A DNA stretch of 64,000 bases from NCBI GenBank assembly GCA_029721435.1, contig CM056573.1:122971447-123035446 (forward strand), given 5' to 3'. Position 1 is the stretch's first letter; each line of letters opens with the position of its first letter. The stretch comes from Gymnothorax reevesii. Its lineage: Eukaryota; Chordata; Actinopteri; Anguilliformes; Muraenidae. Shown one piece after another: positions 655-64,000 of this stretch. Below the pieces are notes generated by a model. That model was given only the letters and a program-made list of their open reading frames with translations, was not told the origin of the DNA and ran no database searches. Made by a program: the position numbers and the translations under genes.

Positions 655-2392
655 TACATTGCTTGGGATGCTGTAACAGAATGCAATGATCTGTAAATCT
701 CACGTAGGCAACATATCAGATGTTGAAAGTGAGACATTTTACAATTTCATGAAAAATATTGGCTCATTTTAAATTTCATGGCAGCAACATATCTAAAAAA
801 AGTTGGAATAGGGCCATTTTTACCATTGTTTAGCATCCCCTCTTCTTTTAACACCAGTCTGTAAATGTCTGGGAAGTGAGGAGACAAATTGCTGAAGCTT
901 TGGGAGAGGAATGTTGTCCCACTCTTGTCAGATGTATGACAGTGACTGGTCTGGACTGAAGTTAGGCCAGTTCAGCACTCAGATTCTTCTACTTTGAAGC
1001 CAAGCTGTTGTCGTGGATGTAGTATGTGGTTTGATATTGTTTTGCTGAAATATGCAAGGCCTTCCCTGAGATGTTTGGATGGGAGCATATGTTGTTGTAA
1101 AACTTTTATATACATTTCAGCAGTGATAATCCCTTTCCAGATGTGTAACCTCCTCACGCCATAGGCACTCATGCAACCCGATACCATCTGAGATGTAGGC
1201 TTTTTAACTGCGCACTGATACTAAGCTGAATGGTCCCCCTCCTTCTTAGACCACAGGACACGGTGTCCCTGGTTACCAAAAAGAATTTCAAATTTTGATT
1301 CATCTAACCACAGAACAGTTTTTCATTCTGCCGCAGTCCATTTTAAAGGAACTTAAAGGCCCAGAGAAGATGGTGGCGTTTCTGGATCGTGTTCACAAAT
1401 GGCTTCTTCTTTGCATGATGCAGCTTTATCTTGCATTTGTAGATTGCACTACGAACTGTGTTCATAGACAATGATCGCTGGAAGTGTTCTTGAGCCAGTC
1501 TATTTCAGTGCAGAATCATGCCTGTTTTTACTGCAGTGCCGTCAGAGGGCCCGAAGACCACGAGCATCCATTATTGACCTACAATCTTGTCCCTTGTGCA
1601 CAAATTTCTCCAGATTCTCTGAATCATTTGATGATACTACGTACTGTAGATTCAAACTCTTTGCAATTTTACATTGAGGAACATTTTTATGAAATTGTTC
1701 CACAATGTTTTAGATGCTGTTTTTTGCAGATTGGTGAATCTCTCTCCATCTTTACTTTTGAGAGACTCCGCCTCTCTAAAATAGTCTGTTCATACCCAGT
1801 CATTTTACCGACCTGCTGCCAATCAACCTAATTTGTTGCAAAATGCTCCTCCAGCTGTTTTTTATTAGAACCACTTACTTTTAGTATCACCAGCCTTTTG
1901 TTGCCCCTCTCTCCCAACTTTTTTGAGAAATGTTGCTGCCATCAAAATCAAAATGAGCTAATAGTTTTCATGAAATGGTAAAATGTCTCACGTTCAACAT
2001 GTGATATGTTGTCTATGTTCTATTGTTAAATAAATGTGGGTTTATGAGATTTGCAGATCATTGACGAGAGTAGGGAGGTACTATGGCTTCGTTCTGGGGG
2101 CCACTGCCACCGCCACTGTGCTCGCAGAGATTTTCAGTGCTGGGCTTTGGAAGTGACAATTATTACAGGAATTTTTTCTAATTTTGCACAGGCGAAGATA
2201 TTTGTTTGAAAATCCTCAAGACCAATTTTCGGAAATTTTCAACGTACAATATGGCTGCCGGCGGCCATTTTGTCTGGAATTTGGGGATCAGAGAGATACA
2301 CGACTCGGCCTCTGAGGTGACCGATTTATCTATTAGCATTCTGTTTTCATTTACAATTTACACATCATCCCAACTTTTTGGAATTGAGGTCG
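655..2392 (-). mobile_element. decayed Tc1/mariner-like transposon, split by an insertion
   Basis: The transposase reads on the minus strand in broken frames. The longest piece (972-1187) contains GCMSAYGVRRLHIWKG and YIKVLQQHMLPS, which match the centre of a Tc1-family DDE transposase common in fish. The ends carry matching inverted terminal sequence: the left has ACAGAATGCAATGATCTG and TCATGAAAAATATTGGCTC; the right has the complement around 1960-2063 and 2337-2392, ending in CCCAACTTTTTGGAATTG. The first ~15 bases of the left end look lost, and the frame is broken by many stops and indels, so the copy is dead. The same superfamily recurs at 33.6, 44.6 and 61 kb. Confidence 0.85.
2064..2336. 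other. 273-bp insertion within the right end of the Tc1-like element
   Basis: In the left terminal repeat the sequence equivalent to CAATCATTG...CATTCTG is continuous. On the right side it is interrupted after 2063 and resumes at CATTCTGTTTTCATTTAC (2337). The inserted bases contain a GC-richer patch (GGCTGCCGGCGGCCATTTTG) and no terminal repeats or target duplication that I can see. Its origin is unknown. Confidence 0.55.
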
Positions 2393-31888: not shown

Positions 31889-33250
31889 ATGCCTACATTG
31901 ACTGCAGCCGTTTAAACTTTTTTCTTTATAAAGCGACTTTGAGTATTTAATAAAAAGCTATATGAATTACATGTAGTCCATAATTACACAATGGCGGGCA
32001 GTGGACAGAGAACAAGGAGGGCGATAAACATGTCTTAAAACTGGTTATTAGTCTTGATCTGTTTTCAGTCAATTTCTCTGGTAAAAGATACTTGAACTCT
32101 CCCCTCTCAGGTGGAGCTAATTGTCTTACTTAAGACGAGAAATCAAACGCACCAGTTGAGTGCAAAAAAGAGCGCATCTCAATCTTTTTCAATTAAACAA
32201 TCATTACGCACAGGTTTGATAACTTGCTTAGGACATGACAGAATTTAAGGCGGAAAATCCACAATGGAAGAGTTGCCTAGTAAGGCATGTGAATTAAACA
32301 TTTATAGAATTTATTAATCATTTGCCTAAACAGTTCATTATAAGGGAAACCAACATGTTGACCAAGAACAATGATTGAAATCGGGTCACTAATCTCATCC
32401 GTTTCAAGGGATGTTTTCTGCCCCCTCGGTTTTCCATCCACCATCCACCACTGTTATTACATTATCAGTAGCCTACTGATCGCACAAATTATTTACCAGA
32501 CAGGCTGCAGATGACATGACCAGCTCTGCTGCCAGCTGGTCACTCATTGCCCCTGCTACTGATGGCAGTATATCAGCATTTGGAGTCGGCACCTGCACTT
32601 CAGCCGCCTTCTATAGTCCGGTAATAATCTATCCTCAAACTCCAGCATCATTCCATGGCGTAGGGCAATGTTGTGCAGCACACAACATGCCACAAAGAAA
32701 GATGCTACTTTCTGAGGACCATACTGTAAGACCCCACCTGACCTGTCCAAGCAGCAAAACCACATTTTGAGCACGCCAAATGTTCGCTTAATGACAACTC
32801 GTGAACGTGAGTGTTTTCTATTGAATGCGAACTCACGCACACTTGTTGGCATAATGTATGGCACCGTGCACCACGTCTTTAATGGATAGCCATGGCGACC
32901 TCCAGGATGATTTGCGTATACATTCAAGATGTACCCCCATGCATCGCAAATCACCTGGATGTTGATGGAATGAGTTCCCATACGATTCAAATTGGCGCCT
33001 CTCTGGGCCGCCTCTCGCCTAGACGATTGCCTAGGCAAAAATCTATCCCTTTATTGGCAACAATTAGTCCTGGCTTGTTCTTAATGGTTTTCCTTTATTA
33101 ACACGTTTTCCAATTTAAGAATAATCAAGTGGCAATTGAAGACATGGCTTCTCTCCCCGTATGTGATCTGACAGCGACAAATGGGCTGCATTCAGTTCAG
33201 AAAAATTATTAATTATAATCAGGTCTATGCACTGGCACTCAGTGACGTTA

Positions 33251-41373: not shown

Positions 41374-42383
41374 GTGGCTAATCAACATGCTGTTCTCTCT
41401 GGATATGGCAAGGGTCTTTCTAGCCTGAAAAATCAACAGGCAGAGTTGGCGGAGAGAGTCCGTCTTCAGGCAAATGCTATGGAGAGACAGGAAAACGTTC
41501 TGTTAACTCTCACTGGGAGTATTAGAGCCTTGTCCTCTCTGATCACGCAAAATGTTGCACAATTGCAATCTGTACACCTTCCCCGAGAGCCAAAACTCCA
41601 GTTACCCCCAAGATATAGAGGCGAGGCAGGAAGATTTCATTGCCCAATGTGAAATATTTTTTTAAAGCACAGCTTTCACGGCTTGTGAATGAAGAGTCTC
41701 GGGATTCATTTATTTTATCCCTGCTGACCGACCCAGCACTCACTTGGGTTGGCCCACTTATTTGATCTAATTCACCGGTCGCGAATATTGTGGAGACTCT
41801 CGTTAGAGAAATGGTATGGGTGTTGGATCAGGATGTTTGTGGTCAGGACGCGGCTATGCACTTAATGCATCTGAGGCAGGGATCTGAGAGTGTCGCTGAG
41901 TTTTCGATCTCATTTCGCACCTTGGCCACAGAGACAGGCTGGCCAGAAGTGCCTCTTATGACAGTTTTTGTTCACGCTTTGGCTGAGGAGGTTAAGTACG
42001 CTCTGGCTACATTGGAGCTTTGTGTTACTCTGGATTCGTTAGTTTGCACTGCGGCACGAATTGATAATCGCATCCGCGAACGTAACAGGGAGAAACTTGC
42101 ATTGACTCTTGCTGGCAACAGGGCTAATGCTCCTCGCAGCGTGCATACAGCTCCCATTCCGCCCACTGAGATTTCCACTCCTGGCGAAACTATGCAGGTT
42201 GATGGCTCATATGAGAGCAGGGCTCGTAAACCCATTCGCAGACATATAATCTGCTATAATTGTAACAAACCGGGACATATCCATCCACGCTGCTCTGAGC
42301 TTCAGGGAAACGGGAAGTCCCTCAAATGGTATGGGGGCGCAACAGGGACAGACCCCATTTTCCTTCTGAACTTTAATTATTAG
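41374..42383 (+). pseudogene. Gypsy gag, frameshifted
   Basis: First piece (41374-41652): a coiled-coil-like KNQQAELAERVRLQANAMER and the LPPRYRGEAG block before the capsid-like domain. After a frameshift and a stop near 41765 the frame reopens at 41790. There follow HLMHLRQGSESVAEFSISFR and TLATETGWPEVPL, the conserved Ty3/Gypsy retrotransposon gag domain. A zinc knuckle CYNCNKPGHIHPRC (C-x2-C-x4-H-x4-C) ends it. The protein would form the particle and bind element RNA. The array element begins right after it. Confidence 0.85.
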
Positions 42384-43530
42384 CTCCCGTCGCTCGCGGT
42401 GCGGGAGCTATGGGCTCCGTCCGTGCGTGTGTGCGTGCGTGCATGCGTGTGTCCGTCAACACATTTTGCTTTAACTCATCAACGATTTCAGTTACTAGCC
42501 CCAAATATTTACTGGACATGCAGCTCATAAAGGCCTACAAATGAGGTGCCTGAAGGTGACCATGACCTATTTTTGCAAGGTCACTGGCCTAAAAATATCA
42601 ACAAAAACTTTGACATTTTGCTTTATCTCATCAACTATTTCAGCTACAGGCTCCTAATTTTTACTGGACATGCATCTCATAAAGGCCTACAAATGACGTG
42701 CCTAAAGGTGACCTTGACTTATTTTTCCAAGGTCACTGGCCGAAAAATATCATCAAAAACTTCAACATTTTGCGTATCTCATCAACTATTTCAGTTACAG
42801 GCTCCTAATTTTTACTGGACATACATCTCATTAAGCCCTACAAGTGACATGCCTAAAGGTGACCTTGGCCAATTTTTCCAAGGTCACTGGCCTGAAAATA
42901 TCAACAAAAACTTAGAAATTTTGCTTTATCTCATCAACTATTTCAGTTACAGGCTCCCAATTTTCATTGGAAATGCGTTTCATAAAGTCCTACAAATGGC
43001 GTGGCTAAAGGTGACCTTGGCCTATTTTTCAAGGTCACTGTCCTTAAAATATCACCAAAAACTTTAATATTTTGCTTTATCTCATCAACTCTTTCAGTTA
43101 CAGGCTCCTAATTTTCACTGGGCATTTACCTCATAAAGGCCTACAAATGACGCGCTTAAAGGCGACCTTGGCCTATTTCCCAAGGTCACTGGCCTAAAAA
43201 TATCACCAAAAATTTAGAAATTTTGCTTTATCTCATCAACTATTTCAGTTACAGGCTCCCAATTTTTATTGGAAATGCATTTCATGAAGTCCTACAAATG
43301 GCGTGGCTAAAGGTGACCTTGGCCTCTTTTTTCAAGGTCATTTGCCTAAAAGTATCACCAAAAACGTCAACAATTTGCTTTATCTTATCAACATTTTCAG
43401 TTACAGGCTCCTAATTAGCTCCTGCTACCCAAGTGGCATAGGAGCTATGGTATCGGGCTCCTTCCGTGCATGCGTCCATCCATGCATGGGTCCGTCAACA
43501 AAAACTTTGACTTTTTTTTTGACATAATGG
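42379..43530. mobile_element. hairpin-ended element with a 151-bp tandem array
   Basis: It begins at a hairpin TAGCTCCCG...CGGGAGCTA (42381-42410) followed by CCGTCCGTGCGTG and GTCCGTCAACA. The same module recurs in direct orientation at the other end (43416-43500: TAGCTCCT...AGGAGCTA, CTTCCGTGC, GGGTCCGTCAACA). Between them the block TTTCAGTTACAGGCTCC starts at about 42486, 42637, 42788, 42940, 43091, 43242 and 43394, a period of 151-152 bp, seven copies. It sits between Gypsy gag and protease. Terminal hairpins plus a central minisatellite resemble Helentron-type non-autonomous elements; that assignment is inference. Confidence 0.75.
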
Positions 43531-43620
43531 CTTGAGCTTCTGGGGCTGCCAGTGCCCTATATTTCCTGTAGAATTGACTGAGGGGAGACAGAGAAAATTT
43601 ATCGAAGCTTTTGTGGCGCC

Positions 43621-44064
43621 ATGGACTGTCTTATGGATGCAGAATGGGCTAGGAGACATTCCATCCCCATCTTCCCTCTTTTACATTCACACACTGTAAG
43701 ATCTTTGGACGGTCGCCTGCTGGGAACTGGATTTATAACTGAAGTCTCTGAATTATTGACTATGTTCATATCCTCTGGTGTTCATTCTGAGGTGGTCTGG
43801 TTTTTTATGATCAGCTCTCCTGTTTTTGCTGTCGTTTTAGGACACTCTTGGCTACAGGAACACAGTGCTCACATCATTTGGGGGAGTCAGAATAACGCGA
43901 TCGTCCAGTGGGGCACTGATTGTAGGTCCCACTGTAGGAACAGTTTGGCATGTCATCCCGGGCATCAATCTATGGGGGAGGCTGAAGCCTGGAGTGACTC
44001 TGAAGAGTTTGTCTCGCACAACCCTCCTAATCTAGAGAAAGGGATAGAGGAGGGATTGGAGTAG
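43621..44064 (+). pseudogene. Gypsy protease region
   Basis: An open frame of 147 codons reads DCLMDAEWARRHSIPI, SLDGRLLGTGFITEVSELL and AVVLGHSWLQEHSAHIIWG. These are the flap and C-terminal parts of a retropepsin-like domain (expected D-SGA-E-L-D, L-G-, LG-PWL--H-P-I-W). The DSGA active-site segment should lie just upstream but is not readable, so the catalytic Asp appears lost at the boundary with the inserted element. Confidence 0.7.
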
Positions 44065-44143
44065 GATCCTCAATTTTACTGGCGGCAGCCAGAGAAGGAT
44101 TGCTATTCGGAGGATTTCTCTGAATAAGAATACAGACACAGAG

Positions 44144-44604
44144 ATGGCAGGTTCCAAACAAGGTGAGAATTTGGGGGCTGCTCTGAGCTTTTGTCTGACT
44201 CCTAATGTTCCTAATGATTATGCTGATCTTGCAGAGGTTTTTAGCAAGCAATGGGCCTCGACTTTACCTCCTCATCACACGTATGATTGTGAGATCAATC
44301 TCTACCCGAGTACCAGTCCGCCCAGGGGTTAATTATACTCGCTGTCAGGGCCTGAGCGTAGGCCATGCGAAAATATATTTAGGAGGCTCTGGCTAATGGA
44401 TTGATTCGGCCCTCCACGTCTCCTGCCAGAGCAGGGTTCTTTTTTTTCGGCAAAAAACATAGCAGCCTGAGACCCTGTATTGATTACAGGGGCTTGAATA
44501 ATATCACCATTAAAAACTGATATCTCCTTCTGTTGTTGAACTCCGTGTTTTGAACATCTGCAGGAGGTGTCGTTTTTTACTAAGCTAGACCTCCACAATG
44601 CTGA
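44144..44604 (+). pseudogene. Gypsy reverse transcriptase, 5' part
   Basis: Frameshifted pieces read [56 protein letters not shown] and FFTKLDLHNA, the N-terminal and palm blocks of Gypsy RT up to the first catalytic Asp (KLDL). A Tc1 inserted immediately after HNA. Confidence 0.8.
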
Positions 44605-46207
44605 TACAACACCCTCCATAATTATTGGTTAAGATGTGTTAAAAGCCTTAAAATAAATTCAATTTTTATTGCAGAGGCATACTCTCACACTAAAAATTGG
44701 AGAAAAATGTAACCTTCAACTCAAGTGAATTTTAAGGGGGAAAAAAAATCCCTGACAAAGAAATAATAATTTTTCATAAAATCACCTGTTCCTCAATTAT
44801 TGGCACCCCTAACAATTCCTAGGAAATAAATGTAATTGAAGTATTTCTGTCATTTCTACAGTAGTTTACAAAGTTGATCAGAGTATCTAGGAACATTTAA
44901 TTAGTAATTCATCACTTCCTGTTTCCCTGAGATATAGATATGATGTGACACAGAGGCCATCTCTCTTATCCTCTCTTCAACATGGGAAAGACAAAGGACC
45001 ACACCATTCAAGTAAGGCAGATATGTGTCAACCCTCACAAGTCAGGCAATGTCTACAATAAAATAGCCACTCGCCCGCACCTGCCCATATCTACTGTCAG
45101 AGGAATCATTAAGAAGTTTAAAACAACTGCAACAGTGGCAAACAAGCCTGGACGAGGATGCAAGGTTATTTTGCCACCACGCACAGTGAAAAGGATGGTA
45201 AGAGAAATAAAAATTTCTCCAAAGCTCACTGTTAAAGAATTGCAACAAATGGTAGCTTCTTGGGGTCACAAAGTCTCCAAAACAACCATCAGGCACTATC
45301 TACATGCCATCAAGCTGTTCGGGAGGCATGCACGGAAAAAACCTTTTCTCACTCACAATCATAAAAGCAAACATCTGGAGTTCACTAAGCGGTACTGGGA
45401 CTTCAACTGGGACCGTGTGGTTTAGTCAGATGAGACCAAGATAGAGCTTTTAGGCAACAAACACTCTAAGTGGGTCTGGTGGAACACAAAAAAAGAGTAT
45501 GCAGAAAAGCACCTCATGCCCACTGTGAAGTATGGGGGAGGATCGGTGATGCTGTGGGCCTGTTTTTCTTCCAGAGACCTTGGGAACCTTGTGAAGGTGC
45601 ATGGCATCATGAACGCTTTGAAATACCAGGACATTTTAAATCAAAATCTGGTGGGCTCTGCCCGAAAGCTGAAGATGGGTTGTCACTGGGTCTTTCAGCA
45701 AGATAATGACCCTAAACATGTGGCCAAACATACACAGAAATGGTTCACCAGACACAGAATCAATCTCCTCCCATGGCCAACTCAGTCCCCAGACCTCAAC
45801 TCCATTGAAAACCTGTGGAGTGAGCTGAAGAGGAGAGTGCAGAGGAGCGGACCCAGATCGCTGGATGATTTAGAGAGATCGTGCAAAAAGGATTGGTCGA
45901 AGATCCCTCTTTCTGTATTCTCCCATCTTGTGAAACATTATAGTAGAATATTAGGTGCTGTTTTGTTGGCAAAAGGGGGTTATACAAAGTATTAACATCA
46001 GGGGTGATAATAATTGTGGCACACATGATTTGATGTAAAAGAATTATTTCTTAATGTGGGATTTTTGTCCCACTGAATAAATGCACTTGAATTAAAGGTT
46101 GGATTTTCCTCTTATTTTCATTGTGGTCCTATATTATTTAGAAAAAAAACTGAATTTATCAGAAGCTGAAGAACACATCTTAACCCGGGATACAAATAAT
46201 TATGGAG
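44605..46207 (+). mobile_element. Tc1-like (DD34E) transposon, nearly intact, inside the Gypsy RT
   Basis: The left terminal repeat, after TA at 44605-44606, is CAACACCCTCCATAATTATT... The right end reads TACAAATAATTATGGAG and then joins Gypsy sequence directly, so the last ~9 bases of the right repeat and the second TA are missing. The subterminal TTAAGATGTGTT is present at both ends. The transposase at 44982-45995 has one premature stop. Its relative at 33600-33727 is only an end. Confidence 0.9.
44982..45995 (+). pseudogene. Tc1-like transposase with a single nonsense codon
   Basis: A 337-position frame, full length for the family. N-terminal paired-type helix-turn-helix DNA-binding part: MGKTKDHTIQVRQI, LPISTVRGIIKKFK, LTVKELQQMVASWGHKVSKT. 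Catalytic Asp 1 in SDETKIELLG, Asp 2 in FQQDNDPKHVAKH, Glu in SPDLNSIENLWSELK; 34 residues separate Asp 2 and Glu (DD34E). The only break is TAG at 45423-45425, directly before SDETK, where the family has Trp (TGG). The frame is open before and after it. Cut-and-paste transposition at TA sites is the known role. Confidence 0.92.
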
Positions 46208-46790
46208 AACTTGGTTCGGATCCGGGAGGGGGACGAGTGGACTGCTTTTAATACACATGATGGGACCTACGAATATTTGGTCATGTTGTTCGGATTGGTT
46301 AACGCCCCTTCTGTGTTCCCGGCACTCATCACTGACGTCCTCACTGAAGAGATGTTGGAGAGATTCGTCTTTGTCTACCTTGACAATATTCTGATTTAAT
46401 GTTCAACTCGCTCGGAGCATAAACAACACTTCAGACGAGTGCTTGAGGCCCTCCTTAAAGCCAAGGTTTTTGTCAAGGCTGAAAAAATGTGTTTTTCATG
46501 CCAAGACAGTTTTGTTCTTGGCTTCATTGTTTCAGAAGGGTCAGTCCGCATGGATCCTGACAAGGCGGCAGCAGTCAGGGATTAGCCCCTCAAAAACATC
46601 AAGGAGGTGCAACGGTTTTTGGGGTTTGCTAATTTTTACAGGAGGTTTATCTGTAATTTTAGCGTGGTAGCTGCCCCCATTATCGCGCTTACTAAGGAAA
46701 ATACCTCCTCATCATTTGCTTGGTCTCCAGCAGCTGAGGCTACTTGTCAGGAGTTAAAGAAGCGATTCAGCTTAGAGCCCATTCTCGTTT
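46202..46790 (+). pseudogene. Gypsy reverse transcriptase, 3' part
   Basis: Resumes with [31 protein letters not shown] and the active-site box [11 protein letters not shown] (expected YLDD). After shifts it continues with [16 protein letters not shown]. Stops at 46397 and 46583 and a frameshift near 46465-46600 break it. The second catalytic Asp of the box is Asn. Confidence 0.85.
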
Positions 46791-47335
46791 TTCCCGACCC
46801 CTCCCTCCCAATCGTTGTGGAAGTAGATGCTTTGGAGGTGGACATGGGTGCTATTTTGTCCCAGCACCCTCGTTGGGATAATAAGCTTCACTAATGCGCT
46901 TCTCACGGTCTTTGTCCGCTGCAGAAGACAATTACAGCATTGGTGACCGGGAGTTATTGGTAGTCAAGCTAGTGCTCGAGGAGTGGCCCCACTGGTTGGA
47001 GGGAGCTGAACACGCTTTTGTGGTGTGGACCGACCATAAAAACCTGCAGTATATTCAGCAAACCAAGCAATGTAATTCCCGGCAGGCGAGGTAGTCATTA
47101 TTCATTAACCATTTTGATTTTACTCTGACCTATCGCCCGGGCTCTAAAAACATTAAGCCTGACGCCCTGTCACGGATTTACGACTGCTCTGACCATGATC
47201 CTACCCCGGAGCCAGTTATCCCGGCTACTCAGGTTGTTGCACCCATTCAGTGGGAGATTGAGGCAGTGGTTCAGGAGCCTTTAAAGACTGACCCCGGTCC
47301 TGGGGGGAGCCTCCTGGCTGTTTGTTTGTTCCGCC
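46790..47335 (+). pseudogene. Gypsy RNase H region, first copy
   Basis: Reads [17 protein letters not shown], then after a stop at 46892 continues in shifted frames through [20 protein letters not shown] and [17 protein letters not shown]. It ends with the linker KNIKPDALSR. This is the RNase H-like fold that follows Gypsy RT. It contains several stops and is more damaged than the second copy. Confidence 0.8.
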
Positions 47336-47872
47336 TACAGTTAGGCCAGTTAAGGAGGTGGATGCGTCGGAAGTTGGGGTGGGTCTCATTTTGTCCCGGC
47401 GCGCCCTTCGGGAGAATAAGTTGCACCCATGTGCCTACTTCTCCTGTTCTTTGTCGGCGGCTGAACGGAATTACAGCATTAGTGACCGGGAGTTGTTGGC
47501 TGGCAAGTTGGTGTTAGAAGAGTGGCGCAATTGGTTGGAGGGGGCTGAACATCCATTTGTGGTTTTGACAGATCACAGGAATCTCCAGTGTGTCCAGCAG
47601 ACTAGGTGACATGATTCCCGGCAGGGGCAGTGGCCATTGTTTTTCAATCGCATTGACTTTACGTTCACTTATCGCCCCGGCTCCAAAAATATCAAGTCTG
47701 GTGCCTTGTCATGGATTTATGACCGCTAGGGCCGTGATCCCATTTCTGAGCCAGTTATTCCGGAGGCTCGGATTGTGTCTCCCATGCAGTGGCATACTGA
47801 GTCTGTTGTCCGGGAAGCCTTGCGGCCCGACCCTGGTTCTGGTGGGGAGCCATCTGGCTGTTTGTCTGTCCC
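47336..47872 (+). pseudogene. Gypsy RNase H region, second (tandem) copy
   Basis: Reads [59 protein letters not shown] and [17 protein letters not shown], followed by [17 protein letters not shown]. The same blocks occur 535-540 bases upstream. It is open for 95 codons before a stop at 47607. A tandem duplication covers exactly the RNase H domain and its linker. Confidence 0.85.
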
Positions 47873-52081: not shown

Positions 52082-52398
52082 CCCTTACAGAAAAATCTCG
52101 TGATTTCCCATGTATTCCACATGTGATCCCATGGGTTTCACATGGGAATTCACGTGATTCACATAAAATTGGGCCAAAACCACACGTTTCCCATGTGCAA
52201 ATCCCATGTTTTTCATGGGTTTCACACTGGTCCCTTACAGAAAAACCACATGAAAAACATGTGATTTGCACATGGGAAACATGTAGTTTTGGCCCAATTT
52301 TATGTGAATCACATGAATTCCCATGTGAAACCCATGGGATCACATGTGGAATACATGGGAAATCACGTGTGATTTTTCATGTGGTTTTTCTGTAAGGG
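52082..52398. mobile_element. palindromic MITE rich in CACATG/CATGTG
   Basis: The ends are CCCTTACAGAAAAA and TTTTTCTGTAAGGG. Arms of about 140-150 bp pair with few mismatches around a ~30-base loop that holds another copy of CCCTTACAGAAAAACCACAT. CACATG, CCCATG or their complements occur more than a dozen times. No coding capacity. Confidence 0.85.
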
Positions 52399-53254: not shown

Positions 53255-53648
53255 CAGTGGAACACACAGTCGCCTGCAAGACGGAGCATAATAGCGTACT
53301 TTCTCTTGCGGCCTGGCATCTTTTTTTTGGGACTCGAGACTCCTGTGGATGAATTGGCTTGGGTTCAAAAGGGGGAATCCGCAGGAGAGGGCATAGAGGG
53401 GGAATCCCCAGGAGAAGACAAAGGGGGAATCCCCCCTGCATGTCTATATTATAATAGCATCGCTCACTTTATGCTACAGATGCGCGCCCCGCGGAGTCTA
53501 GCACCGATTAACCGGACACAGTCGCCTGCAAGACGGAGCCAAACACCGTCGCTCCTGCTATGCTGCAGATACGCGCCCGGTGGAATCTAGCACCGGGTGG
53601 CTGGACACAGACGCCCGCACGCACGCACACACACCGAGGCCACTTGGC
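53255..53648. repeat. irregular GC-rich direct repeats
   Basis: ACACAGTCGCCTGCAAGACG occurs at 53264 and 53516, with a variant (ACACAGACGCCCGCACG) at 53605. Blocks GCGGAGTCTAGCACCG and GTGGAATCTAGCACCGGGTG precede the last two. The tract ends ACACCGAGGCCACTTGGCTA. It looks like a degenerate minisatellite or the end of a repeat element. Confidence 0.5.
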
Positions 53649-53649
53649 T

Positions 53650-54207
53650 ATTATAATATAGATAACGTCAGCATCCTGGTAACATTTTGTTTTGGTTTGA
53701 TCTAAAACAACTGGTTTCCTTTAGACACTTTCAAGCATGTTTATCAAGCTCTTTTTCTCGAGGTTGCGGCTACATTGTCCAAAACATCACCTTTACTGCA
53801 CAACACATCCTTCAAGTACAAATTAATACTTTTAAATGTTGAAAATCTAACACTGTAAATACTTTCAAAATACACAAATGATTGCCATTGCGTAGCCGCA
53901 GGAACTGTAGAATGCGAGTGGTAATTTTCTACCCTCAACGTTGCGCCGAGGTAATAGACTGAGTGATGAATCATTCTTTAGTGTACAACGTATCGTAAAA
54001 TATTGGGGCACCCACTCGTATCAACATTTTCTTGCGATACTTTTCCAGTGTGGAATGACTCAGACTGTCGACAGGTAAAGGTGCCAAATACAGAACTGCA
54101 CCAGCTTCTTGTGGTGAAATAGTAACCTGGGTAGGATTTTAATGAAGCAATCGCCAACATCTGGCACAGGAGAATACGTTCATAAAAGGAGAATTGGGCA
54201 GATAGGT
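53650..54207. repeat. left member of a ~550-bp inverted repeat
   Basis: Reverse complement, with scattered differences, of 60356-60903. It begins TATTATAATATAGATAACGT and reads through CAGCATCCTGGTAACATTTT. Shared blocks include AACACTGTAAATACTTTCAA, GGGGCACCCACTCGTATCAA and CAATCGCCAACATCTGG. Together with its partner it brackets the Ginger-like gene. Confidence 0.8.
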
Positions 54208-54320
54208 TCCCCAAGATTGCGCAAAGCTGGATTTGATCCTCTTCCAGCTGAAATACATAAAGAGGCTAGCTGAGACCTCTGCGCCATCGCATGACAGCTA
54301 CCATGGGCTACTAGTCTTAT

Positions 54321-54795
54321 ATTAATAAACTACGTCAGCACCAGGTAACAGTTTGTTTCATGATTGATTAAAACAACTGGTTCCCTTTGGCAAATACTAG
54401 GACATATTACTTAAATGCTTTCTTGAGGCTGCGGCTATATAGACCACGTAATTACAGCCCCTACTTTCAAGTGTTAAAGTATAGTGTAACGATCAAACGT
54501 GGTCCAGTAGCAGATTACTGTGTATAACAGAACTACATTTACTGTTACCAGCAATATATTGCTTACACAGTGCTAAGCTGGATTTGATCTCCCAGCAAAA
54601 TGCAAAAAAACTTTGAGCACAACCGATAAATTTAATCTCTGCTTGTAGTACGAACAATGTCAGCATCCAGGTAACACTGAGTTGACCCAAAAAAATGGTT
54701 CCCTCGGGCTTCACCAAGTACCTAAACATGTTAAGCCTTTACTCAAAGTTGGACATACTGACCAAAACGCTGGACCCCAAAGACCACACATGGTG
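54321..54795. repeat. two further partial copies of the inverted-repeat start
   Basis: ACGTCAGCACCAGGTAACAG (54322) and ATGTCAGCATCCAGGTAACA (about 54659), each followed by a TGGTTCCCT block, repeat the opening of 53663 in direct orientation. The first two units also share AAGCTGGATTTGATC near their ends. They are more diverged and much shorter than the 53650 unit. Confidence 0.6.
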
Positions 54796-55088
54796 GGTGG
54801 GGGTGGGGCGGGCGAGACCTACTAATGCATGGTTTCAAAACTAACTAATTAAGAGCCACAGGGATCCAAGTAGTAATATTTAACAATTCAGGTCCAAGGG
54901 CGTGGACCTGACACAGTCCTCCATGAGTATACTGTTTAACACAAGGCCACCCATCTAGACCTTTTTATTTGTTATGAACTGGTCAGTGAGCTACCATGTT
55001 AACAGCGTCTCACTATGAGCCCAGCATGGTGTTAATCTAACGGTACAATCCAAAGCAACATCAGACTAGAAGGGTGCTCAGTAGGTTT

Positions 55089-55401
55089 ATTCCCACTTGG
55101 TCTATTCTCATTTTGTCTACAACTTTTTAGCACGATTTCCATTTGGGCTACTGTTTTTACTTGTTTCACCCAAGTCTTTAACACTTGTTTCGTTTGGAGT
55201 TCTACTATCATAATGATGGATTTTTCGTTCAAAGATTTTCACTTGTGTTTTGTTCCCATTACTATGAGAGAAGTCTTTTTATTCATTTTGTCCACCTCAT
55301 AATGCACTTACTCATATTAAATTATAATTTTCTTGAGAGTAGGCAAAATGTGAAAAGGTGGTCATTTGAAAAGTAGACAAAATGAGTAGACCAAATGGGA
55401 A
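55089..55401. mobile_element. MITE with ~35-bp inverted ends
   Basis: TCCCACTTGGTCTATTCTCA followed by TTTTGTCTACAACTTTT is matched inversely by AAAAGTAGACAAAATGAGTA and GACCAAATGGGA. Just beyond the right end are further GTAGATCAAATGAGAGTACA-type blocks. Confidence 0.6.
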
Positions 55402-55464
55402 GTAGATCAAATGAGAGTACACAAAATGAGGGACCGAGTGGGATGTTATCGCTCAGTAGAGCAC

Positions 55465-55745
55465 ATACCTCCGCCACCTCGAACGTCCTATATGCCAGTT
55501 AAAGCTAAAATAAGAACCAAGTCTGAAAGCTCTGTGAAAATTGGATCCAAAGTTGTTGCCAATTAAGTGAATGTGACCTTTTGGTTGACCATGACCTTGA
55601 CCTTTCAGAATTGAATCACTGACAGATAAGTCATTATTCCCAGCAAGTTTCATCACTCTGCATGTAAAATTGTAGCCAGGAACTTTATCAGAGACTGACA
55701 CAGACAGAGGAAAACAGTACCTCCGCCAGTGAAGTTGGGGCAGAG
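55465..55745. mobile_element. short dispersed repeat, hairpin-ended type
   Basis: Starts ACCTCCGCCACCTCG and ends ACCTCCGCCAGTGAAGTTGG followed by GGCAGAGGTTAT, whose ends pair (ACCTC/GAGGT). Internal GACCTTTTGGTTGACCATGA resembles the TGACCTTGGCC blocks of the array at 42.5 kb. Confidence 0.45.
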
Positions 55746-56318
55746 GTTATCAGTCAGTAAAAAACATTTCAGGAAAAGAGTTTAGTTGAGAGTCCTTCTG
55801 CAGCATACATTAAGTTTACAGTACTAGACATAGGACAGTCACAGGCAATTTATAGTTCGAGGGTACCCAATCCCAAAAATAGCAAGGAAAAAAATCCTCA
55901 GGTGGCTAAAAAAAAAAACAAAAAAAAACAACAACATTATATCTCCAGTGGATGAGATCTCAGGAACCTGGCTATAGTGGGGGAGCTCATCCTCTGCTGG
56001 CCGCCCAATTAAAGATGGATAAAAATAAAAAAGCGGATGGGAAAACCAAGCAGTGGCATCGATCACTCCAGGATAGGGTGAGGTGTAAGTGTGGACCAGG
56101 TATAAAACCATCATTGCTTCAGTGGTCCATGGACTCTAAGGGAAGCAGATGAAAACAAACAAACAAACAAACAAACAAACAAAAAACGCCCAAAACGGTG
56201 GTTAGAGTGCTGTTAATTTGATTCTGGACAAAAAGGGTATTCAGTAAAGTTCGTACTTATACCAACCCTGAAGCAACCCGGGTCATAATCATGCAGTGGA
56301 GAAATGCTGAACCTTTAC
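55746..56318. other. unassigned stretch with (CAAA)n
   Basis: Holds A-rich tracts and (CAAA)n at 56155-56185, downstream of the stop codon of the Ginger-like gene (its 3' side). Confidence 0.4.
56155..56185. repeat. (CAAA)n microsatellite
   Basis: CAAACAAACAAACAAACAAA run. Confidence 0.9.
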
Positions 56319-56566
56319 TTATCCACATGCTGGACAATAGAAGTTCTGCTCCAGTGGTGGTCTCCCTACACCAATCCAATGGAACCATAGACCACATGGT
56401 GTACACTGGATCTGAGGAGAGGCATGGCTGTTGATTACCACCACATGACATTTGTAATTATGTCTGAACCTTCAGTGTATTCTTATCCAGTCATCAGTTA
56501 CATCATTCCCTCTCCCTGGACTTTGACATGCATTCCCACATGCACAGCATACTTCTGAAAGGTCCT
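56319..56566 (-). pseudogene. PHD-finger exons 13-14 of the Ginger-like gene
   Basis: Exon 13 reads LSEVCCACGNACQSPGRGND then VTDDW. Exon 14 reads IQCTPCGLWFHWIGVGRPPL then EQNFYCPACG and a stop. Joined in order they give the C-x2-C, W-I-x-C-x2-C, WFHW, C-x2-C pattern of a PHD finger. One zinc ligand (Cys of W-x-C-VG) is Gly or Ile here. The donor after exon 13 reads ATAAGA where GTAAGA is expected. PHD fingers bind histone tails; here it could steer integration to chromatin, which is inference. Confidence 0.75.
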
Positions 56567-56808
56567 CTAAATCACACAAATGCAATTAATGTCTCAATCA
56601 CACATACACACAAAATATATGACAGATAAAATACCTGAATCAGTGACCAGTCTGCAAGCAATTTCCTTCCTCAACTAAGTGATGGAGGCTTCATCAGTGC
56701 TGAAATCCAGGACCCCACCAGCCAGGAGAAGCTCTGCAAACTACAAAAGACATCATGTAATCAGTTGCTGCCTTAACAGCATTCAAAGGGTCACCTGCAC
56801 TCATAACT

Positions 56809-58108
56809 TGCAGACAAATGCCCCACAGGATGTAGAGTCTTGCTGACACGGATGGCTTACAGTATGACAAGTCCACCGCGAGATATGAATATTTTTGTAC
56901 CTCATGAAAGCTCTGCAGAATAGCAAAAATGCTTAATTTTAGCCATGAACCATTCAAGACATTACCACAGATCGACTTACCTGGTCATATTCTTTTTTTT
57001 TTTTTTTTAAAGTTTGGCATCTCCAATCCCACCCAAATCTGGAATGCCCAATTGAAGAACTATGTACAAGCTCGTTTGCGACCCCTTGCTGCCATTTCAG
57101 GAGAGTGTAGACAGTTTGCGACTCTCCTCCGTAGCACGTGCCTGTCAGCCACTGCTTATTATACACTCATGGGGTGAATCCTCCCAAGTTCAGAGCGAGG
57201 GCAGAGGATACTTGGGCATGAACAGACTTAAGAATCTTCCCGTCTGGCCAACAGGAGGTGCTTGATCAACGAACAAAGCTGTTTATTTTATTTCCCATTT
57301 CCTACAGTCCCTTCCCAATTTGAAACCCTGTAGCACTATAGCCAATTGGGCGCTACTCTGAAAAAGCTGCCGACCACTGGCGGTTGGTACGACCAGGACT
57401 CGAACCCGCGACATGATAGTCACTTCTGCACTGCAACGCAGTGCCTTATCCGAGTGAGCTATCAGGTCATATTCCTGGTCATATTCTTGCCTCTGGTTAT
57501 GTGGTCAGGGTTTTCACCCAATGGGTCAATGTACACTGCCTGCTTCTCTTTTGGATAAATGACCTTCAATGCAAGACATGTAAAGATTAAGATCACATTA
57601 AAATTAAGTTAGAGAGCCTCAACATGTATATAGAATTTTATGCTGAGATGGTGGGAATACTCACAAGTGTCCAGTGCTGCTTGTCACAGACTGGTCTGAT
57701 GAGGACGCCATCGGCCATAGGGTCAACCTGTAAACATACTGAATAAATCCATGTTTGTATTGTAAATCATCTGCAAACATTTTGAAAATGCTTACCTTGT
57801 TTAATGCCTGGAATGATCCTTGCCACATTGAAGTCATTTGAAACGAGTCAACATAATAAACCTTTCCCTCAGTTTCTTCTTGCAACTTCCCAATGATGGC
57901 ATAGATGAATGCATTCAAGGCCTGAACCAATAATTGTGTCAATTGTTTCTACAAATTGTTGCCAACAAATTTATTTAAGCATGCGTTTACCTCTCTCTCC
58001 ACCTCCCGTCCTGGGATAAATTTTGCGAGTCCATGGCAAATATTTTATATGGTCCAACTATGCTCCGCAGTGCACCTTTCTGTTTTTTCAGCCAGATGTC
58101 AGCTATTA
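56809..58108 (-). pseudogene. Ulp1-type cysteine protease exons 8-12 of the Ginger-like gene
   Basis: Exon 8: DIWLKKQKGALRSIVGPYKI then FAMDSQNLSQDGRWRE. Exon 9: ALNAFIYAIIGKLQEETEG and YYVDSFQMTSMWQG. Exon 10: VDPMADGVLIRPVCDKQHWTL, with the catalytic His-Trp. Exon 11: VIYPKEKQAVYIDPLGENP, with the catalytic Asp. Exon 12: WTCHTVSHPCQQDSTSCGAF, with the oxyanion Gln and nucleophile Cys. The H-D-Q-C order and spacing are those of C48 (Ulp1/SENP-like) peptidases. Exons 9 and 10 are whole numbers of codons. Exon 11 is split by a SINE (56995-57473). Confidence 0.88.
56995..57473 (-). mobile_element. tRNA-derived SINE with 15-bp target duplication
   Basis: The minus-strand head is at the high-coordinate end: A box TAGCTCACTCGG, B box GGGTTCGAGTCC (about 57400-57465). 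It has a ~370-bp body and a poly-A tail seen as a 17-base T run from 56993. CCTGGTCATATTCTT occurs at 56980-56994 and 57474-57488, a perfect target duplication. The head family differs from the SINEs at 19.1 and 50.4 kb. It lies within exon 11 of the Ginger-like gene. Confidence 0.9.
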
Positions 58109-58258
58109 CTGAGAATGAGAAAAATGTTAATCACCTTGACCTCAAAATTTAATAGGTCCATTCCAAATTTTCAGTCCTTTCAGGACTGAAACTACAGTAA
58201 ATATGCAGAGCTTTTTCAGTATGTTGTTGCAAAAATGATATTGAATGGAAATCTATAC

Positions 58259-59054
58259 TTAAAATCTTCTGGGGAGACTGCAGTTGATGATTCACACGCT
58301 GTTGGGTCCCATGACTGGAGACTGGAGGACAGGCGGCCAGATCGGGGGCTCATTCTGAAGATGGGGGATTGGGGAACTCCAAGAGACCTCAAGGGGCTGG
58401 GCTGCAGAGCTGGAGAAGTGGAAGTGGTTCCAATCCATTTTGCTGGGATTCGTGGCTGCGGTTCCACATATTTCTTCAGATGGTCAATGTTGACCCCTTC
58501 CGCGTTTTTAAATCTGCACTTTTGCCATCAATATTTGTTATGGTGATTGGACCCAATAAATCCGTTTCCAATTTCCCTCCCTTTCTTTGCTCTAGTGAAT
58601 ATTTTTCTGCAACACTTGATCCCCCACCCCAAACCAGTCATCTTCTCCCTTCGATAGCTTCCTCTTCCGCACCCTTGCTTGTCCTTCAGTTATTTTGGCC
58701 TCCACTTTAGCATACACGTCTTTGAGGCTTTTAGTTTGGATGCATACGTCTTCATTTTCGGCCTGTGCATCTATCGGCCTATCTCATCACTAGTCTGTAA
58801 TAGATAAAAATGAAAGATCAACACATTATGGCAGAGATGGTTTTCAACGCAGCTCCTCCTGCATGGAAATTTCTCATACCTGGCTCTTTTCTGGAATTTC
58901 TGATGGGTAACGGGCTTCCCTCCCATACATGAGGAAACATGGGGAATATTTGGTGGTTATTTGTTTTTTTGTATGTAGTCCAAGCACAGTGGGTTTGATT
59001 TGAATGTCCCAGTCACTTGGATGATCCTGCGCCATTTAAGCTTAAAAGGAAGAA

Positions 59055-59088
<34 letters not shown>

Positions 59089-60307
59089 GTGCTTTACCCT
59101 TGAATGGTGCCATTCAGCTTTTCCAATAAGCCGTTTGTTTGTGGGTGGTACGGTGCGCAGAGGCTTCTGGCAATGCCAAGTTTTGCACACAAGTCCAGAT
59201 TGATCTAGCATATACATTGGATAGGAAGACACGTTCAGTATCATTTCTCCCCACCCCCCTTTATCTACAGACAAAAGCACAGCAACGTCACATGTCGGGA
59301 ATCACTTACTTTATTGACAAATACTTTCTCCGGTCAGTCAGGATTCGTTTTCGTGCGCAATACTTATAAAAGAAATCCATGAAGCAGTCCGTTACCTCCT
59401 CAGCCCTCTTGATTTTCAGAGGATAGACTTCCAGCCATTTTGTGAAATAGTCCATCATGACGCAGATGTATACATGTCCATTGTTGGAGCGCTTCAATTT
59501 GCCAACAAGGTCCATCCCCACCAGTTTAAAAGGGCTCGGACACCATAAATGCTAACAAAGCACAATGGAATGTTTTACCAAACCAGCACAATAGACCCTC
59601 TGCCCTGCTCATTTTAGAACATTTCATCTTAGATGCACATGATTCAGCAGGGCACATGCAGGGCAGTGGCCCCCATGACCAACACTTCAGAACTATTTAA
59701 CATCATGCAACATGCCAGGAGATTATTCACCTCGATGGGTTTATACTGAGTTTTTTCCTTAATGGAAGCCCTCTTTTTCTGGCACTCATCGCACTGGGCA
59801 ACCTAAAAAAGTGAAAAAAATTACCAACACTCAGGAAGTGCTCCATTACATCCATATCAGAAATATGGGATAGTAATGCACTCACCCATTTTGTGAGGTC
59901 AGCTTTCATACCAGGCCATTAATACCGCTGAAGAATTGCATGCATTGTCTTGTCTACTCCACAGTGAGCGCCGATAGCACTGGCATGAAACTCTATAAAG
60001 ATGTTGTTAGCTTCCTGCGGAGAACAAACTTCCTTTGCAAGATGATGCTGCGCCTCTTAGGCACTGGTAATAGAGTTCACCATCTAGGGATTACATTACC
60101 ATGAGCATTAGAAATGTCATTTTTTTTAAAAATGGATGTCATTTTAATAAACAATGGATATTGTGCTGCTGGGTGGTTCGACTTACCTCTTAATTGGTAA
60201 CTCTCTACCCTTTGTTTCAAAACGTAATGCTGACTTTTTGTGAAGCTTGGATGGTAGATGTTTTTTGTCTTAAATTCTGCAATGTCCTTCACTTTGCACA
60301 GCTCCAT
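58259..60307 (-). pseudogene. integrase-encoding exons 1-7 of the Ginger-like gene
   Basis: Exon 2 encodes EFHASAIGAHCGVDKTMHA and, after a stop, WPGMKADLTKW. Exon 3 adds VAQCDECQKKRAS. Together these make the H-H-C-C zinc finger of retroviral-type integrases. Exon 4 holds catalytic Asp 1 in FKLVGMDLVGKL, then YFTKWLEVYPLKIKRAEEV and Asp 2 in RILTDRR. Exon 5 holds the catalytic Glu in YHPQTNGLLEKLNGTIQ. Exon 6 reads YSPCFLMYGREARYPSEIPE, the end of the core. Exon 7 carries KVEAKITEGQARVRKRKLSK, FGVGDQVL, a GPY/F-like LLGPITITNIDGKS in a shifted frame, and VNIDHLKKYVEP. All three DDE residues are visible. Exons 2-3 and 3-4 join in phase. Confidence 0.85.
59055..59087. repeat. (AAT)n microsatellite
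   Basis: AATAATAATAATAATAATAA run in an intron of the Ginger-like gene. Confidence 0.95.
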
Positions 60308-60355
60308 GTCAGTCTACTTTATCAAACGCTCCACTACACTACTGAGAAAATACGT

Positions 60356-60903
60356 TCTTCCATCTGCCCCATTTTCCTTTTAGAAATGTATTCTCCTGCG
60401 CCAGATGTTGGCGATTGCTTAATTAAAATCCTAACCAGGTTACCCTTTGACCGCAAGAAGCTGGTGCACTGCTGTATTGAGTCATTCTACATTGGAAAAG
60501 CATTGCAAGAAAATGTTGATACGAGTGGGTGCCCCAATATTTTACAATACGTTGTACACAAAAGAAGGTAGAATGATTCATCACTCAGTCCTTTACCTTG
60601 GCGCAGCGTTGCGGGTACAATATTACCATTCACATTCTACAGTTCCTGCGGCTAAGCGTTGGCAATTATTTGTGTATTTTGAAAGTATTTACAGTGTTAG
60701 ATTTTCAACATTTAAAAGTATTTATTTGTACTCATGTGTCGTGCAGTAAAGGCTGTGATGTTTTGGGCAATGTGGACGCAATCTTGAGAAAAAGAGCTTG
60801 ATAAACACGGCACGCTCGAATGTTTCTCAAGGAAACCAGTTGTTTTAGATCAAACCAAAACAAAATGTTACCAGGTTGCTGACGTTATTAATATATAATA
60901 ATA
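60356..60903. repeat. right member of the ~550-bp inverted repeat
   Basis: Reverse complement of 53650-54207. It ends GTTACCAGGTTGCTGACGTT followed by ATTAATATATAATAATA. Its inner end (CAGATGGAAGAACG on the minus strand) is only about 50 bases upstream of the Ginger-like start codon at 60307, so it is in the promoter position of that gene. Confidence 0.8.
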
Positions 60904-60956
60904 CATGAGAGTATTTGGGAATTTGTTTGTTTGAGAATAGCTGCAGAGAATGAATG

Positions 60957-62372
60957 TACAATGCCATTTCCAAAAAAATTGGGACATTGTGTAAAATTTA
61001 CCTGTAAAAACAGAATGCAAATATTTTGAAATCAGTTCAGCTTCATATTTATCTGATAATTTTTTTGATAAAAAAACGCATCTGGGTGGCAGTAAATGCT
61101 GGACCAAAACCTGTATATATCGTTCACCATTAATGGTGTCTCATGGATGTGCAAGTCACTTATGCCTTGTGTACTAATGCACCCCCACACTGTCATGGAC
61201 CCTGGCTTTTTAAGTTCTTGCTGATATTGAGCCGGATGGCCCCTCTCCTTTCTAGCCTCCATGATTCACAAAAAGAATTTCAAAAAGAATTTTGCTTAGT
61301 CCAAGCACAGGGCAGTTTTCCGCTTTACCTCAGTACATTTTAAATGAGCTCGGGCCCAGAGAAGAAGGCAGTTTTTCCCAGATCTTGTATATGAGCCCCT
61401 TAGAACAAGAGTGGTCCAACTAATGTTTTTTCATTTTTCATTGAGGACAACAATTGCACTGAGTATTTTTTGCGTTCTTGATGTATGGAACATATAACCG
61501 GCTAGTTGTAAAGTACCGCTACTACACCAAGTTAATTCACTCTTGTATTTAACAGATAGACCATTAAGGAATCATTTTAAGATTAGAACTAAAAAAAAGG
61601 ACAAATCTGGAGTTAGACCACTTTTGTTCTCAGGGGCTCACATGGCATAATCTCTACATGGCAGGGCTTTAACTTGCATTTGTGGGTGCAGTGACAAATA
61701 GTCAACTGACATGACACTGCTTTCCAGAAGTGTTTCTGAGCCCATGAAGTGATTTACAGAATCCTGTCTGTTTATCATGAAGTGCTGTCAGAGGACCAGA
61801 AAATCACTGTCATTGAAAAATGGATTTTGGCCTTGTCCCATGCGTTCAGAGACTTATCTGGATTCTCCAAATCTTTTAATGATATTGTGTACCATAGAGA
61901 ATAAAATCTCCAAATTCTTCGCAATTTTTAGTTGAGAACCATATTCTCAAATTGTTGGAACTGTTTCCCCATGCAGTCTTTCATAGAGTGATTAAGCCCT
62001 CACCATATTTCCACATGAATGACTTTCTATACCTCATCATGTTACTGTCCTGTCGCTAAATAATCTACTTAAGAGTGAGATGTTCTGCCAGTTGTCTTTT
62101 TTTTTTCTCCATCATGCAACGTTTACAGCATTTTATTGTCCTATCCCAACTTTTTAAAAACATGTTGCTGTTATCAAGTTCAAACCGACCTGATATTTTT
62201 TCAAAAAACAATAACATTTATCAGTTTCAAAATTTGATACACTGTTTTTGTCCTATTTTCAATTAAATATAGGGTCTTAATTGATCTACAAATCATTGCA
62301 TTTTGTTGTATTTGCATACATATTTACATTATTTACAAAAGCATCCCAACTTTTTTGGAAATGCAGTTGTAA
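60957..62372 (-). mobile_element. decayed Tc1-like transposon
   Basis: Left end TACAATGCCATTTCCAAAAA and right end TTTTTTGGAAATGCAGTTGTA are inverted repeats, followed inward by GTTGGGATGC/GACATTGTGTAAA. The minus strand shows GSMTVWGCISTQGISDLHIH and other transposase scraps, and plus-strand text parallel to the element at 655-2392 but of a different subfamily. Stops and indels are frequent. Confidence 0.85.
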
Positions 62373-64000
62373 GTTAATACAATGTCCTCTCGAGTGTAGC
62401 CATTGAAATGTGTGTGTGTGCGCGCACATGCTTCTGTGAGAGGACATGGTGAGGTTATGAACATGTGGTGAAATCTCCAGAATAGACACAGGAAGTCTCT
62501 CTGGATTTGTGCGTGGGTGTGTGGAAGGGGAGAGTTTGGAATCAGCTCGGTGAAACCAGCTGCTAATCTGGCCTGGCCAAGCCTGGTCTGCTGACCCTTT
62601 CACTCTGTTCTTTTACGCATTCAAAAGGATTTGCTACATTCATTTAACACGGAGGTCACCAACCCAGTTCTTGGAGATCTACAACTCAAAGCACACCTGG
62701 CCCCCCACATTCAATATGAGGTGCAATGATGTGCTCAATTATCTTGCTAAAATATGTGGAGTTGAATTTTAATTCAGTGTTTACTGAACTAATCTTTTAT
62801 GTGATTCCTAAACAAGACTAAGTCACGTCCTAGTACATGGCTTGACTGTGAGGATGTGCTTAAGTACTGTGAGCCTCACTGTAAAACCTCCTAATGATGT
62901 TATTGTTAACTGTTCATGGATATTCATATTTTCAATGAAAAATTTCTTTTTGTCAAAAAAAAAAAAAATCAAATACTCCATCCCCCCAGGGGATAACTCA
63001 GGGGTCTCAGGGGGATAACGAATACCAAGGGAAAGCAAACATCTAGATGTTAACTAATTAACACATTAAGCAGGTTTAAGAGAGCTGACGTTTAAGTGGG
63101 AAATAATGAGAGGTTTATTTTTTCTTTGTCTGGATTAATTTAGAAGGGAGGGCTGAATTCCACCTCTCCGCGAACGGAGCAGCAGACGGGCCAAGTTGAC
63201 TCGTGCCATAGTTAAGCTCAGCTGTGACCACATTGTGTTTCTTTAAAAAAAAGATTATTTGAACTTCTTTTTTTGCACTTTTCACAGAGGGGATGTCACA
63301 AAGTCACTGCAGTGCAGAAGACTAGAGCCTGTGCCCTGGTCTAAGTTCTTAAAAAATAAATGTCTGATTATTCAGCTGAGAATGGTGAAATGATTTTCTC
63401 TCACTGACAGAAAGTGATCTTCAGATTTTGAAACATGATACTAAATTTTCACATCCCCCTTCCCCCACAAAAAAGCTTGGGCTTTATTGCTTATTACTGA
63501 TTACTGCCTTCAAAAATGATAAAATCCCATAATCTAGGAATAGACATCATTGTAGACCCATTCAATGAGATGGAATAGGTTTACAACAGTTAAAGGATGA
63601 GTGCAATGTGGATAACTTCTTGCAGTGCTTAACTTTTTAAGTTAAGTACATGTTCTCTGCAGCCTATAATTTTTTGTTGGTTTCTCATAAACAAGTCCCG
63701 AAAATGTGCTAGTTCTTTCAAATTCACCCGCCAAAACTAATGTTTTGAGTACTGCTCTCTGGATATGTAATTTTGTTGGCAAAAAAAATAAAAAAAATTC
63801 AACCGTTGTAATCAGTTTGGAATAAGTGAGCAGCATGATAATGACATCATATCTCAGGGTTTACACACGAAACTGGAAATTCTCCCACCCACCGATCCTG
63901 TCAGTAAATTATGCATTGATTGCGCTGTCAAAAGGCATGCGACATGACATGTTTTTGGGTAGAAGTCCAAATCCAAATGTGGCGAAAACTGAATCAATGG
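62373..64000. other. unassigned stretch
   Basis: (TG)n at 62409-62425. A GGTCACCAACCCAGTTCTTG GAG-type block at 62655 resembles the end of a vertebrate hAT MITE but is too short to call. Otherwise nothing supported. Confidence 0.35.

Follow-up and report, generated by a model that had tools for sequence, protein, structure and literature searches.

A spliced integrase–protease–PHD gene in Gymnothorax reevesii

The window analysed here is a stretch of 64,000 nucleotides from contig CM056573.1 of the fish Gymnothorax reevesii. On its minus strand lies a gene of transposase type, reading from an ATG at 60307 to a TAA ending at 56319, in which a Gypsy-like integrase is followed by an Ulp1-type protease and a PHD finger. 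The original prediction had proposed this gene, and its ATG, its TAA and the named motifs were all found as claimed. Using the joined read-through of the gene as a query, we retrieved 110 proteins at E ≤ 0.001, of which P0001 (675 aa, stop-free) was the best match with 1084 bits. Each exon was then aligned to P0001 in a frame-tolerant manner, except exon 1, which was compared with P0015 instead. The results showed 15 exons and 14 introns between 60307 and 56319; about 14 exons had been proposed, and the count is higher since the PHD finger is divided over two of them (56566-56487 and 56411-56319), while the high intron number proved to be real. The AG acceptor is kept in all 14 introns and the GT donor in 11 of 14. 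Decay has removed the donor GT behind exons 7, 12 and 14; at exon 4, the GT donor is placed one base before the boundary set in the exon-wise alignment.

The domains follow one another along these exons (all on the minus strand; residues of P0001 after the coordinates). Exon 1 (60187-60307) holds the start codon and the N-terminal region, with IYHPSF before the zinc finger as a possible YPYY counterpart, compared by eye; it is identical to P0015 at 12 of 35 positions and ends in a GT donor. The two halves of the H2C2 zinc finger are encoded by exon 2 (59886-60083; 1-37) and exon 3 (59731-59802; 38-61; CDEC). The first and second Asp of the DDE core (GMDLVG, ILTD) are located in exon 4 (59310-59551; 65-139), the catalytic Glu in the HPQTNGLLE motif of exon 5 (59098-59204; 140-174) and the end of the core in exon 6 (58880-59040; 180-231), and exon 7 (58262-58794; 234-413) carries a GPY/F-like block and a linker. 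The Ulp1 domain starts in exon 8 (57991-58108; 415-453) and runs through exon 9 (57796-57921; 455-495), exon 10 with the catalytic His in KQHWTL (57665-57727; 496-516), exon 11 with the catalytic Asp in YIDPLGE (57465-57563 as far as an insertion; 518-547) and exon 12 with the Gln/Cys motif QQDSTSCGAF (56807-56912; 548-582), ending in exon 13 (56635-56740; 583-617). The PHD finger is formed by exon 14 (56487-56566; 619-644) and exon 15 (56319-56411; 645-673), the latter also containing the stop codon.

Pfam was run on read-through pieces of the gene, with the own cut-off of each domain. Integrase_H2C2 (66.4 bits, cut-off 25.5), rve (52.9 bits, cut-off 32.6; matched in exon 4) and Peptidase_C48 (41.4 bits, cut-off 20.7) were all detected; the D, D and E of the integrase core are all there, and the His-Asp-Cys set of Ulp1 is kept. 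Three of the four domains that the prediction expected from such a scan of the spliced exons were thus recovered above their cut-offs, and the PHD finger was not, as it scored 17.5 bits (cut-off 24). In the GPY/F region, LGPITI in the window corresponds to LGPFIII in P0001, and this piece gave no Pfam match.

The copy in the window is a pseudogene and is unable to work as it stands. Its aligned parts hold two in-frame stops (one each in exons 2 and 13) and four frameshifts (one near the end of exon 4, two in exon 7 and one in exon 8). Further damage was seen by eye: exon 6 opens with a TAA, and the frame changes within exon 2 and again where exon 4 begins. In exon 15, the PHD cysteine after the His is replaced by glycine, and P0001 keeps the cysteine. 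In addition, exon 11 is broken by an insertion of about 470 bp (56997-57464, minus strand) that resembles a short interspersed element (SINE), with a tRNA-like head recognised by eye, an A-rich tail and GAATATGACC(AG) copies on both sides; the GT donor of exon 11 lies behind it, at 56980. Neither ARAGORN nor Rfam called a tRNA in this insertion.

Unbroken relatives carry the same parts in one protein

The exons succeed one another along P0001 with 477 identities in 653 positions (73% over the aligned exons), and P0001 runs unbroken across introns 2 to 14. The residues of P0001 outside the exon alignments are 62-64 and 175-179, which fall where exons 4 and 6 are broken, together with 232-233, the single junction residues 414, 454, 517 and 618, and the last two. 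Because P0001 spans 13 of the 14 introns without a break, the integrase, protease and PHD parts belong to one spliced protein, as had been predicted; the evidence for this is indirect and comes from a relative of the window copy. P0001 begins within the zinc-finger part of the second exon, so its N-terminus is missing. Its source label 'lgn' is taken as assembled sequencing reads. Since its contigs measure at most 2452 nt and are shorter than the intron-bearing gene, P0001 would most simply be a spliced transcript; the alternative would be an intronless genomic copy.

Other fish have the complete set of domains. P0002 (Metynnis hypsauchen) and P0003 (Triplophysa dalaica), annotated as hypothetical or uncharacterized, each bear all four Pfam labels, in agreement with the expectation that one protein of another fish would combine them. 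We also performed a fresh Pfam scan (E ≤ 0.1) of 10 hand-chosen proteins and found H2C2, rve, C48 and PHD matches in six of them (P0001, P0003, P0004, P0006, P0008 and P0165), among which PHD reached its cut-off only in P0003 (25.7 bits) and P0004 (24.0 bits). PHD was present and the H2C2 match absent in P0111 and P0115, and a PHD match was absent from P0028 and P0125. P0165 (eukprot Em0004g1510a) is probably a protein of the sponge Ephydatia muelleri and has the domain order of the window gene; its similarity is weaker than that of the proteins found in several teleosts. The lancelet protein P0125 (Branchiostoma floridae), which has no PHD match, shows a UBA-like domain at residues 1226-1263, after the Ulp1 part.

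In a count by motif over 188 retrieved proteins, Gypsy polyproteins and fragments included, the C-terminal half of the PHD was recognised in 30, of which 18 have HPQTNG and the Ulp1 cysteine motif in addition. A regular expression of four motifs found none of the 30, which contradicts the Pfam matches and is blamed on its H2C2 pattern. No relative was found when IMG/VR was scanned with P0001.

Relation to Gypsy and Ginger1 elements

We built a tree of 37 rows, consisting of the window gene and 36 hand-picked relatives (P0064 was dropped for low coverage). The window gene groups with P0001 and P0011 (100/100), within fishes, and belongs to a 19-row clade (96/91) in which fish proteins are joined by lancelet, scallop and probable sponge proteins; one member of this clade, P0175, has no C48 match. 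The Gypsy polyproteins tried and six integrase-like proteins lacking a C48 label fall outside the clade. Long branches occur in six of the 12 Gypsy-like rows. When eight Gypsy-type polyproteins were compared with 50-64 kb of the window, matches at E ≤ 1e-4 were confined to query residues 720-1108, the integrase part, and no gag, reverse transcriptase or RNase H match was found alongside the integrase. The polymerase part of these polyproteins matches 46.2-47.8 kb, on the opposite strand.

The closest described system is Ginger1-9_HM of Hydra, which has Ulp1 and PHD in Table 1 of Bao et al. 2010 (PMC2836005, here and below as far as its text was available), with 2 introns, a length of 3,758 bp and terminal inverted repeats (TIRs) of 120 bp. 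As in the window, Gypsy-type integrase domains are followed by Ulp1 and PHD in a single transposase, whereas the window holds a dead copy with 14 introns and no identified ends; the two were compared by description. The domain make-up is therefore not new, and the PHD finger does not make this gene the elaborated version that the prediction saw in it, the same order being present also in the probable sponge protein. P0001, P0002 and P0003 share the domains and their order as well and differ in that their frames are unbroken. The combination of integrase, Ulp1 and PHD in a multi-exon transposase is already known, and what is added is a fish member with 14 introns and a conserved KDM5-like cleft in its PHD finger. 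The integrase-Ulp1-PHD make-up of a Hydra Ginger1 element is now found in fishes, together with unbroken relatives, and provides an example of a transposase spread over 15 exons. A multi-exon source transposon is also mentioned in the available part of a 2026 paper on Imagin (PMC12863088). In the literature searched, Ginger, transposase, Ulp1 and PHD were named together by Bao et al. 2010 and by one plant RNA-seq paper, in which each word occurs a single time.

These results suggest that the window gene is a dead transposase gene of a Ginger1-type cut-and-paste DNA transposon, to which we assign a probability of about 0.85; the Ginger1 type named by the prediction is judged probably right, and membership is inferred from the gene itself, the ends not having been found. 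Several observations weigh against it. By eye, no TGTNR terminus and no CCGG/CCGT duplication was seen at the inverted arms that flank the gene, although the true ends may lie farther out or have been lost, and the 14 introns stand against the 0-4 of published Ginger1 elements. The tree was built from rows that include no reference Ginger1 sequence, and support is weak (52/97) for the split that sets the 12 Gypsy-like rows apart. The PHD score is under the Pfam cut-off in the window, and likewise in P0001 (14.9 bits).

The high intron number would also suit an old host gene, domesticated in the manner of GIN1 and GIN2 and later turned into a pseudogene here. GIN1 and GIN2 have a Ginger1-derived integrase and several exons, and for GIN2, which is found in fish and descends from Ginger1, the number of coding exons is given as eight (PMC3424704, available part); the derived host genes listed by Bao et al. 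have 6-8 introns (PMC2836005). GIN1 and GIN2, however, are domesticated and syntenic, and a word search of the available text of PMC3424704, which names the HHCC finger, integrase and GPY/F, gave no mention of Ulp1 or PHD. The fish relatives of the window gene are, moreover, many and diverse, with several per species in Labeo rohita and Chaenocephalus aceratus, as expected for a mobile family, and we regard domestication as improbable. That a Gypsy integrase came by chance to lie beside an unrelated Ulp1-PHD gene could be imagined from the Gypsy remains about 9 kb off (41.8-47.8 kb), but those remains are on the other strand, and the unbroken single proteins that unite all these parts in one order (P0001, P0003, P0004 and others) refute it, leaving it a negligible probability.

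Inverted arms around the gene

The gene is flanked by two inverted arms of about 540-555 bp, located outside the coordinates of the original prediction; no other long inverted repeats were reported between its two sides. The left arm (53649-54203, minus strand) and the right arm (60362-60900, plus strand) are 83% identical over 570 columns. The left one is probably a copy of an interspersed repeat whose head is tRNA-like, and the right one is the same repeat lacking the head. A third, diverged copy of the outer end of the arm (54318-54465, minus strand; 68-72% identity) is oriented as the left arm, and a further copy of the terminal motif with one mismatch was found at 54656-54676 on the minus strand; the motif has three matches in the window, compared with a mean of 0.00 in 100 shuffles.

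The arms were initially taken as the TIRs of the element itself, which would make a whole element of 7.25 kb whose TIRs are double the length of the longest yet published; in the listed Ginger1 families there are 0-4 introns, the TIRs measure about 40-270 bp and the duplications are CCGG/CCGT (PMC2836005). The inverted orientation, the 83% identity and the position on both flanks, with a gap of only 55 bp between the right arm and the ATG, all speak for TIRs, as do the lack of any tRNA call by ARAGORN or Rfam in the supposed head and the unsupported target duplications of separate insertions, since the left score was reached by 101 of 2000 shuffles and the right by 1743 of 2000. On the other side, the outer ends are AT-rich and variable, have no TGTNR and share no common 4-bp flank (by eye), and CCGG sites occur nearby with none at the arm ends. 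The two additional terminal-motif copies lie on the left side only and in one orientation, a head piece of 41 columns (78%, E 2.6e-4), with a block resembling tRNA box B by eye, is common to the left arm and the second copy, and this head is absent from the right arm, as in a truncated retroposon. The same-orientation copies, the tRNA-like head, the missing TGTNR and CCGG and the variable AT-rich ends led us to demote the TIR interpretation, which we now consider unlikely, and the arms are probably two copies of one retroposon.

Rfam gave no match in the whole window at gathering score; on 53500-61000, a single match with E 0.33 is taken as chance. A tRNA-Leu called by ARAGORN at 58353-58448 on the plus strand runs antisense within exon 7 and is regarded as spurious.

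Proposed activities of the Ulp1 and PHD parts

In P0001, the Ulp1 part could be aligned to SENP2 (E 1.2e-10) and SENP1 (E 4.2e-10), the His-Asp-Cys triad included. A Foldseek comparison of the P0001 model with SENP2 gave a target-normalised TM-score of 0.81. The model also fits a NEDD8 protease (0.77, E 2.0e-8), and therefore the fold does not settle which modifier is removed. The mean predicted local distance difference test (pLDDT) score of the model is 65, and because only the Ulp1 part is good, integrase fold matches from this model carry little weight.

The PHD segment of P0001 matched 12 PDB sequences, including KDM5B, KDM5A, TAF3 and ALFIN-like PHDs at E 2.4e-5 to 3.6e-3, with PHF20, a KDM7 homologue and WSTF also among them. 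Both positions of the trimethyl-lysine cleft are Trp in the transposase PHD by alignment, the window copy included, and the same is true of 24 of the 30 PHD-bearing relatives, some of which are near-identical. At the first position, the others have Met (four), Lys (one) or Arg (one), whereas all 30 have Trp at the second. Met-Trp pairs are found in other readers of trimethylated lysine 4 of histone H3 (H3K4me3), such as TAF3 and RAG2. In the third PHD finger of KDM5A, the cleft is made by W1625 and W1635 (PMC9172573, available part). KDM5A and KDM5B are host demethylases, and the likeness of the transposase PHD to their PHD3 is one of sequence; a KDM5-like PHD with both cleft Trp suggests that the transposase may read H3K4-methylated chromatin.

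The prediction had proposed that such a protein could read chromatin and remove SUMO-like modifiers during integration. We infer both activities still, with better support than before from the SENP-like Ulp1 and the PHD3-like finger. In the proposed mechanism, the transposon ends would be bound by the spliced protein, some 750 aa long, whose H2C2 finger and DDE core would carry out strand transfer like retroviral and Gypsy integrases. Through its PHD finger the complex would be held on H3K4-methylated nucleosomes, and at the site the SENP/Ulp1-like cysteine protease would free host proteins, or the transposase itself, of SUMO or a similar modifier. In the available part of PMC2836005, a role in repair was proposed for Ulp1 or OTU, and a word search of that paper gave 0 occurrences of histone, H3K4 and chromatin.

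Tentatively, and with odds somewhat against it, a lineage of integrase-type DNA transposons from sponge to fish may combine an H3K4me3 reader and a SUMO protease in one protein, integrating at active promoters and stripping modified proteins there. The PHD of RAG2 and the host tethers of retroviral integrases are parallels to such a lineage, which, if real, would be their self-contained counterpart. The gene offers a concrete test of whether a cut-and-paste element chooses its targets via a histone mark.

Neighbouring repeats in the window

The Gypsy remains at 41766-47760 (plus strand) are those of a degenerate long terminal repeat (LTR) retrotransposon with other repeats interposed, and show weak gag and zinc-knuckle matches besides the polymerase-part matches at 46.2-47.8 kb. 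Within them lie a nearly continuous Tc1/mariner transposase (44949-45995, plus strand; HTH_Tnp_Tc3_2 then DDE_3, in one frame with a single stop) and a 151-bp tandem repeat of 6.3 copies (42461-43416). A fragment of a Harbinger-type transposase was detected at 32559-33050 on the minus strand (DDE_Tnp_4, 58.3 bits). Upstream of the gene, at 60950-62378, there is a repeat resembling a DNA transposon with 35-nt inverted ends (80%), and pieces 63-72% identical to it are located near the left end of the window (714-817 and 1076-2063). Remains resembling a long interspersed element lie at 10079-12822 (plus strand), with long frames of endonuclease/reverse-transcriptase look and a weak Exo_endo_phos_2 match at 10889-12091 (18.2 bits against a cut-off of 27.4). 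At 52099-52367, the window holds a near-perfect palindrome, whose 124-nt arms are 95% complementary with 21 nt between them.

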